Positions 2,811-7,898 of a stretch of 64,000 nucleotides of DNA are shown here, in pieces (within the stretch, counting starts at the first letter, position 1; each line of letters begins with the position of its first letter). This stretch comes from Nitrobacter sp. Nb-311A (GTDB lineage: Bacteria; Pseudomonadota; Alphaproteobacteria; Rhizobiales; Xanthobacteraceae), in assembly GCF_000152905.1 (NCBI RefSeq), contig NZ_CH672416.1:93398-157397 (forward strand), read 5' to 3'. Under the pieces are notes generated by a model, which was given only the letters and a program-made list of their open reading frames with translations, was not told where the DNA came from and did not search any database. Position numbers and translations under genes: made by a program.

Positions 2811-2943
2811 CCCTCTCCCCTTGTGGGAGAGGGTGCCGGAGCGAAGCGGAGGCGGGTGAGGGGTCAAGCATCGCGTTTCGGATCGACCCCTCACCCGGTT
2901 TCTCGCCACGCTCGAAACCACCCTCTCCCACAAGGGGAGAGGG
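2811..2943. repeat. Intergenic palindromic element between ccmA and ccmB
   Basis: The outer arms are a perfect 25-bp inverted repeat (2811-2835 and 2919-2943, beginning CCCTCTCCCCTTGTGGG). A second perfect 13-bp pair lies inside (2853-2865 and 2885-2897, CGGGTGAGGGGTC). This looks like the REP/RIME-like element scattered through Bradyrhizobiaceae genomes. It sits inside an operon and would form a long hairpin in the ccmAB transcript, which could attenuate or stabilise it. A related element is inside the gene at 7002-7898. Confidence 0.9.
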
Positions 2944-6846: not shown

Positions 6847-7001
6847 TGGGGAGGTGTGTTAGCCGTTTCGGCCTGCGAGCGAAAGGGTTGACTGCACGAT
6901 CCTCCCATAGGACTGGTGCGCAGAGATGAGCGACTTTCGGATTCGGACAATGTGATGCCCCTACAAAATGTGATGCGGCGATAACCAGAAATAAAGTGAC
7001 C

Positions 7002-7898
7002 ATGAACACGGCCCAGCCAACGCCGGAGGAAATCCAGGCCCGCGTGCTCCACCGCGACGGGTTGATGCTGGTGATCGACAAGCCGGCGGGCATCGCCGTC
7101 CATCGCGGCCCCAAGGGCGGCGCCAATCTCGAAGCCTCGTTCGACGCGCTGCGGTTCGGCCTGCCGCGGCCGCCGGTGCTGGCCCATCGGCTGGACCGCG
7201 ACACCTCGGGTTGTCTGGTGCTCGGACGCCACCGCAAGGCGACGGCCTCGCTCGGTCTGCTGTTCAAGCACGGCAAGATTTCAAAGACCTACTGGGCCGT
7301 GGTCGAAGGCGGTCCGACAGATGACGAGGGCACCATCGACATTCCGCTCGGGCGGATGAACGAAGAACGCGGCTGGTGGCAGAAGCCGGATCCGAACGGG
7401 TTGCCGTCGATCACGACATGGAAAGTGCTGGGGCGCGGCGTCCTCACTGCGGCCGGCGATCACTTCTCCCCTTCCCGTTGCGGGGAAGGGCCGGGAGTGG
7501 GGGCCAATGGTTTCGACATCCCAACAAATCACCCCCCTCCCCAACCCTCCCCCACAAGGGAGGAGGGAGCAGAAATACCGCCGAGCGATATTGACCGAAC
7601 AACATTATTGACCTGGCTCGCACTGGAGCCGATGACCGGCCGTACCCATCAACTGCGCGTCCATTGCGCGGCGATGGGCTGGCCGATCGTCGGCGACAGC
7701 ATCTACGGAACGCAGGCAAGTTTACGCCGCCTGCGAAACGAACAATACATCCCGCGTCTCGACGATCCGGGCCTGCATCTGCATGCGCGTGAAATCGCGG
7801 TTCCGCTGTCGAGGAACAAGCCGCCCGTCGTGGTCGCCGCGCCCGCGCCCGCGCATTTGCACGCGATGCTCAAAGCATGCGGTTGGGATGGGAAGTGA
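7002..7898 (+). CDS. RluA-family pseudouridine synthase with an in-frame repeat insertion
   Basis: Isomerises uridine to pseudouridine in rRNA or tRNA; the exact target cannot be read from sequence. The product has 298 residues. Motif II is HRLDRDTSG (62-70) with D65 as the catalytic aspartate. Motif III appears as GRTHQLRVHCAAMGWPIVGD (213-232). Residues about 152-197 are a Pro/Gly-rich stretch (SPSRCGEGPGVG, HPPPQPSPTREEG) that has no place in the family fold and corresponds exactly to a palindromic DNA repeat. Without it the protein would be about 250 residues, normal for the short RluA group. A GTG at 6996 is an alternative start. Confidence 0.9.
   Translation: MNTAQPTPEEIQARVLHRDGLMLVIDKPAGIAVHRGPKGGANLEASFDALRFGLPRPPVLAHRLDRDTSGCLVLGRHRKATASLGLLFKHGKISKTYWAVVEGGPTDDEGTIDIPLGRMNEERGWWQKPDPNGLPSITTWKVLGRGVLTAAGDHFSPSRCGEGPGVGANGFDIPTNHPPPQPSPTREEGAEIPPSDIDRTTLLTWLALEPMTGRTHQLRVHCAAMGWPIVGDSIYGTQASLRRLRNEQYIPRLDDPGLHLHAREIAVPLSRNKPPVVVAAPAPAHLHAMLKACGWDGK
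7465..7569. repeat. Palindromic element inserted in frame within a coding sequence
   Basis: Two hairpin-forming ends, CCCTTCCCGTTGCGGGGAAGGG on the left and CCCTCCCCCACAAGGGAGGAGGG on the right, bracket G-rich and C-rich inner arms (about 7484-7504 and 7530-7547). The layout resembles the element between ccmA and ccmB. It is translated as part of the pseudouridine synthase without frameshift or stop. Borders are approximate because no target duplication is obvious. Confidence 0.8.

Follow-up and report, generated by a model that had tools for sequence, protein, structure and literature searches.

A palindromic repeat translated in frame within a predicted RluA-type pseudouridine synthase of Nitrobacter, at a turn that looks like a recurrent landing place for repeats

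Introduction

Rickettsia palindromic elements (RPEs) are about 100 bp long. They are dispersed palindromes translated in frame within conserved proteins, and one of them lies inside the tRNA pseudouridine synthase B gene of R. conorii, as described in the accessible text of PMC3733652. The same text places REPs inside ORFs for DnaE2, DNA polymerase I and tRNA pseudouridine synthases A and B in several bacteria, and describes recB of two Xanthomonas in which a REP was inserted at about one site. GTAG/CGTC REPs are characterized there as short palindromes, often in inverted pairs and mostly intergenic, with some located within ORFs. From the bacterial family of the host studied here, Bradyrhizobium japonicum has two intergenic REP families, Br-REP1 and Br-REP2 (accessible text of PMC5082802).

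Here we analyzed a 64,000-nucleotide stretch of Nitrobacter sp. Nb-311A (the window), in which an earlier note had reported an in-frame palindrome within an RluA-type gene. That observation is confirmed. Events of this kind are known, because RPEs and REPs within ORFs have already been published (PMC3733652, accessible text); the Rickettsia precedent proposed in the note is thus right in kind and too narrow, as the published REPs lie in ORFs of other bacteria. Judged by description, the repeat has the general features of RPE-type coding palindromes, being dispersed and in frame in conserved proteins. It differs in that RPEs belong to the genus Rickettsia (PMC3733652, accessible text), whereas the turn studied here is filled across many genera. 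Unlike the GTAG/CGTC REPs as defined in that text, the Nitrobacter element runs from CTCCCC to GGGAGC without either tag, and no full-length Y1_Tnp domain was found in nine Nitrobacter genomes. The consensus sequences of Br-REP1 and Br-REP2 given in the accessible part of PMC5082802 are, by eye, unrelated to the element. In open-licence PMC text (figures excluded), we found no account of this repeat family, nor of one turn being filled again and again in different genera, and the consensus strings occurred in one unrelated paper alone.

Results

The host gene and its expanded loop

The gene that carries the repeat has the following features in the window:

7002–7898, + strand: predicted RluA-type pseudouridine synthase gene with the repeat inside (P0001; ORF and PF00849)
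7185–7211, + strand: HRLDRDTSG motif, intact (translated sequence)
7638–7667, + strand: GRTHQLRVHC motif, intact (translated sequence)

In the source genome (G000, 4.1 Mb) the gene lies on contig C11, divergent from a neighbor that looks ftsY-like by eye. P0001 has 298 residues, with an alternative GTG start at 6996. PF00849 (PseudoU_synth_2) matched residues 23–224 with 105 bits against a cutoff of 26.8 (E 5.5e-30), and this match together with the HRLDxxTSG motif identifies P0001 as a probable RluA-type pseudouridine synthase. The curated cutoff of TIGR00005 (NCBIfam) was missed by P0001 (160.5 vs 192.7); an insert-free relative, L012, which is partial at its N end, was also under it (176.4). 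The translated ORF is uninterrupted across the repeat, and both enzyme motifs are kept, as the earlier note had stated. We take the HRLDRDTSG motif to be catalytic, and the enzyme presumably remains active. A 12-residue extension follows IYG at P0001 residues ~237–249 (window about 7710–7750) in seven of the eight Nitrobacter orthologues read, and is missing in G008.

Comparison with orthologues and an AlphaFold2 model of P0001 defined the region around the repeat:

7410–7448, + strand: beta strand preceding the loop, residues 137–149 (AlphaFold2 model, pLDDT 82 at residues 141–150)
7437–7607, + strand: expanded loop, residues 146–202 (orthologue comparison)
7599–7625, + strand: beta strand following the loop, residues 200–208 (AlphaFold2 model, low confidence)

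The loop of P0001 measures 57 aa. In the shortest orthologues, which are also the commonest, it has 3 aa, and the net gain of 54 bears out the proposed insertion; most orthologues read have a loop of 3 to 8 residues. Within the P0001 loop, 27 nt 5' of the element and 37 nt 3' of it are non-element DNA. The model, built with 30 close relatives, had a mean pLDDT of 49 and fell below 50 at residues 152–198, and it was used for the two flanking strands alone. When solved RluA, RluC and RluD chains were aligned to an insert-free orthologue, they had at most one extra residue at this turn. The low-confidence model and the short turn of the solved relatives both place the repeat between two strands. 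We infer that the loop is disordered and lies at the surface.

A 107-bp palindromic element

A profile made from 27 copies outside the gene gave the element borders; the window copy matches profile positions 2–108 of 109. The borders given before, 7465–7569, differ from these by at most 1 bp.

7464–7570, + strand: palindromic element, 107 bp (profile from 27 copies outside the gene, 66.9 bits)
7463–7504, + strand: left arm, containing a small hairpin at 7469–7476 / 7483–7490 (borders from other copies)
7505–7529, + strand: spacer separating the arms (comparison with other copies)
7530–7571, + strand: right arm, inverted relative to the left arm, with hairpin 7545–7553 / 7559–7567

The element encodes P0001 residues about 155–190, starts with CTCCCC and finishes with GGGAGC. 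Both small hairpins were detected as inverted repeats in the sequence, and own-genome BLAST showed that the right arm resembles other copies in the source genome. Arm-to-arm pairing was not among the inverted repeats reported by the repeat search of the window copy; it is proposed because of the RNA fold and the comparison with better-preserved copies. Folded as RNA, 7458–7572 reaches −60.1 kcal/mol; relative to 200 dinucleotide shuffles, this is a z of −4.49.

Own-genome BLAST with the 105-bp query returned nine matches, and a query near a better-preserved copy returned 43 at E ≤ 1. These 43 matches and the 66.9-bit match to outside copies support the earlier proposal of a dispersed palindromic repeat. 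With two inverted palindromic units, a spacer and many copies (the copy number being that of first-look candidates), the element has the makeup of a BIME-like REP pair. In 27 other genomes of the family, the common form of copies outside the rluA-type gene is CTCCCCTCCCCCTTGCGGGGAGGGGTCGGGGGTGGGGGTC, a spacer of ~25 nt, and CACCCCCCACCCCAACCCTCCCCCGCAAGGGGGGAGGGAGC. The 27 profile copies are the best matches outside the gene to one Bradyrhizobium rluA copy, and because they were chosen in this way their likeness to each other is partly selected. Stops are absent from 133 of their 162 frames, against a mean of 96.9 (sd 6.1, maximum 115) in 500 mononucleotide shuffles, and the element is therefore easily translated. 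No terminal GTAG or CGTC tag was seen by eye in 25 copies compared with the definition in the accessible text of PMC3733652. Rfam at gathering score gave no matches in the window, L160, L165 or L166.

PF01797 (RAYT) matched the source genome as fragments alone, covering 60–121 and 1–37 of 121 positions, and had no match at E ≤ 0.001 in the eight other Nitrobacter genomes. With no full-length Y1_Tnp domain found in the nine genomes, a RAYT was set aside as the mobilizer of the repeat. Elsewhere in the window, at 2811–2833 (+) and 2921–2943 (−), lies a palindrome that is related to the element yet distinct from it, present as an inverted pair (CCCTCTCCCCTTGTGGGAGAGGG, followed by a GCGGGTGAGGGG tail); by eye it appears to be intergenic, beside a membrane-protein gene.

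We then compared the profile with 60 loop inserts of at least 12 residues, a set collected from earlier orthologue searches rather than at random, which omits duplicates (L105, L111), frame-broken genes (L073, L074) and the contig-split genes of G238 and G246. Scores reached at least 10 bits in 43 of the 60 and at least 20 bits in 36, the latter spread over 13 genus codes plus the doubtful L289, whose genome has 8% contamination. None of 1200 mononucleotide-shuffled inserts was reported by the profile at E ≤ 10. The remaining 17 inserts fell below 10 bits, and L009, L260 and L264 had no match. In group g10, L009 and L260 are long Ala/Gly/Pro-rich loops at the same turn, without similarity to the repeat profile. 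A hairpin-stem score measured against shuffles gave p < 0.01 for 3 of 52 inserts and p < 0.05 for 15 of 52; it proved too weak as a test for GC-rich inserts, and the profile test was used instead.

One could suppose that the loop is a low-complexity, GC-rich codon expansion merely resembling the repeat, as the two g10 loops without a repeat match and the weak stem scores (p 0.11 for the window copy) might suggest. The 66.9-bit match of the window copy to copies outside the gene, with 0 of 1200 shuffles reported, speaks against this. For the window copy we regard codon expansion as refuted by the profile test, and we give the idea almost no credence in general.

Copies within other proteins

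The earlier note had suggested a genome search for copies in coding sequences: among 20 matched stretches inspected in G000, at least three are in frame in conserved genes, namely the P0001 gene, dnaE2 (NF004225) and polA (NF004397). dnaE2 holds an element copy, and polA a single arm at L200 ~1501–1537 (G000:C11:34786–34822). The aligned stretch of G000 PolA exceeds the matched part of its family profile by 97 residues. Other genomes contributed 27 sampled copies, of which at least three are in frame, in HrpB, GlyS and ThiC (hrpB, glyS, thiC); these were placed between domains by domain borders rather than by orthologue alignment.

Judged by eye, the dnaE2 linker contains main-type repeats in G000, G005, G003, G007 and G002, some of them eroded or with a second palindrome, and the linker is short in seven relatives, a count that leaves out L234. 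From these sequences, the linker appears to be a second recurrent target. Also by eye, the linkers of G001 and G006 (L224, L225) contain an unrelated, in-frame palindrome pair of the CGTC type, and that of Bradyrhizobium G031 (L226) contains another in-frame palindrome unrelated to the main type.

Distribution of the loop insert

An orthologue is present at E ≤ 1e-42 in at least 355 of 391 genomes of the family. With an insert-free query, the matches listed for 160 orthologue genomes included 148 in a single piece. Extra residues numbered between 0 and 7 in 133 of these and between 8 and 14 in another 14; one match was shorter. In four of the 14 (L250–L253) the extra residues are outside the loop. 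At least eight of the 12 non-single-piece genomes listed have a loop insert (G129, G080, G083, G237, G238, G246, G280, G314). The Bradyrhizobium loops are a partial sample, drawn from among the matches listed.

The nine Nitrobacter genomes include five long inserts, two 14-residue loops (G002, G005) and a 3-residue turn in G008; G007 had no orthologue among the matches listed. In G002 and G005 the 14-residue loop finishes much as the longer inserts do, and we read these two loops as probable deletion scars. Proline-rich segments in repeat-free orthologues, which the earlier note had named as evidence against insertion, were found as decay alone: the inserts of G001, G003, G004 and G006 are eroded and score 21–45 bits.

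All 16 g28 genomes among the matches listed contain the insert, and 13 of the genes are open. In G238 and G246, also of g28, the gene is split across two contigs, with the repeat on the 3' piece. A 3' tail is shared by 10 of 13 aligned g28 inserts. The gene is broken in frame within the repeat at L074 (G118, g28) and at L073 (G259), either by real loss or by sequencing error in the hairpin. In G025 the gene is split near the loop, which is short.

The earlier picture of a single insertion in one Nitrobacter does not hold, as the same turn contains repeats of several types in other genera.

Weak protein constraint and conserved arms

In five groups pN/pS was 0.60–0.81 for inserts and 0.04–0.15 for flanks, so the protein encoded by the insert is weakly constrained. 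L047, L053 and L057 were omitted from this set owing to a codon offset and kept in the g28 arm comparison. There (13 genomes, 78 pairs), fourfold sites differ by 0.254 per site, compared with 0.058 and 0.041 for the two arms, 0.276 for the spacer and 0.321 for the tail; three of the rows compared are codon-offset, and flank pS without those rows is 0.337. The g28 arms are less diverged than fourfold sites and are therefore held at the DNA level, either through conversion among copies or because the element itself is constrained. When spacers of rluA and genomic copies were compared in order to tell conversion from descent, the spacer was located in only 3 of 11 g28 rluA rows.

Whole-insert pS is also below flank pS in g28, in one g58 pair (0.041 vs 0.252) and in one g3 pair (0.164 vs 0.451). 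The order is reversed for four Bradyrhizobium (0.343 vs 0.266) and for Nitrobacter (0.451 vs 0.280), so inserts are not less diverged in every group. The Nitrobacter insert is decaying while its reading frame stays intact. First-look repeat candidates, a proxy for copy number, were counted among the matches listed: in g58 the median was 71 in carriers and 31 in non-carriers (p 0.0019, n 7 and 31), and in g3 it was 39 vs 28, which is not significant (p 0.09). G324 and G339 are absent from the carrier comparison. The divergence and the candidate counts are easier to reconcile with pressure from insertion, combined with tolerance, than with a function specific to this gene.

Such a function might be exerted at the RNA level, with the hairpin kept to slow translation, for example, or to regulate its own mRNA. 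The strong fold (z −4.49) is consistent with this, as is the conservation of the g28 arms beyond fourfold sites. Against it, the loop is short in most orthologues read, the Nitrobacter gene is still open with an eroded repeat, and copies outside the gene, which were chosen for similarity, look equally conserved by eye. We consider an RNA-level role quite improbable.

Recurrence, types and orientation at one turn

On a tree of 125 orthologue rows, built with the loop excluded, the fewest changes between loops of at least 12 aa and shorter ones number 22. The count does not say which changes were gains and which were losses, and support is below 80 on 46 of the 122 inner branches. Carriers and non-carriers are neighbors on supported branches in L055 and L281 (98), L052 and L024+L252 (100), and L058 and L016 (97). 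The tree omits six duplicates and all but 24 of 80 named loci; the named loci lean to the short state because the picking alignment had an insert-free first row.

Besides the main type, inserts translate to TSPLAGEV, TSPWRGEV, HPSPEGGG and others, with TSPxxGEV in g58 and g3. The inserts of L007, L055 and L067 are in phase 1, and that of L052 gains 6.8 bits when scored on the minus strand. G001 and G006 are tree neighbors (support 89) that differ at 18 of 123 fourfold sites; their inserts align over 111 of 177 columns, 87 of them identical, and were read as different types. In L049 (G230) and L050 (G136) a second palindrome-like stretch is nested in frame in the left arm (GCCTGCCCCGGACTTGATCCGGGG in L049).

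Where the two strands differ by 10 bits or more in score, which is so for 26 inserts from nine lineages, orientation and codon phase are always the same. Random tolerated insertion does not predict this. Either insertion is directed to one base and one orientation, or some inserts are older than they look.

The second possibility leads to a single ancient insertion that dates from the ancestor of the family and was passed down vertically with many losses, its arms refreshed by genomic conversion; it partly overlaps with our preferred explanation, repeated insertion or refilling at a tolerant turn. An old insert would explain the 26 of 26 in shared orientation and phase, the insert in 16 of 16 listed g28 genomes with its shared 3' tail in 10 of 13 aligned, and the scar-like 14-residue loops of G002 and G005. 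It would also need many returns to the short turn, and it sits poorly with several element types, such as TSPxxGEV in g58 and g3, with the phase 1 inserts L007, L055 and L067, and with the minus-strand L052. We therefore think a single ancient insertion rather unlikely.

Discussion

The explanation we prefer, with considerable confidence, is a mobile, largely stop-free palindrome that was inserted and tolerated in a beta-hairpin turn. The element would be non-autonomous, ~107 bp long, with two inverted REP-like arms of ~40 bp, a spacer of ~25–28 nt and few stops. It inserted into codons of the beta-hairpin turn in the RluA-type pseudouridine synthase. The gene has stayed open, with a Pro/Gly/Arg-rich loop, because the net insertion was in frame and the turn is tolerant of extra residues. 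Across the family the turn would be hit or refilled again and again. In some lineages the arms stay near consensus, probably through conversion between copies or through constraint on the element; in Nitrobacter the insert decays, presumably as a neutral spacer, or is deleted to leave what we read as a scar.

A more specific version, which we put forward tentatively and with some doubt, is that the turn is a preferred, oriented site of integration and exchange, where the base is fixed and element types are swapped, homogenized with genomic copies and erased to scars. If true, a single protein loop would keep a continuous log of how active repeats have been in the family.

The event is ordinary in kind and unusual in its recurrence at one site. 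Most reports of palindromes in frame describe isolated examples or list them; in the present data, one enzyme turn and, apparently, one DnaE2 linker are occupied time and again by several repeat types in different lineages. Repeats seem to have landed in this turn repeatedly and become protein there. It may offer a natural replicate series for following how mobile DNA becomes protein and how fast it decays, and for telling random, tolerance-filtered insertion from site-directed insertion.
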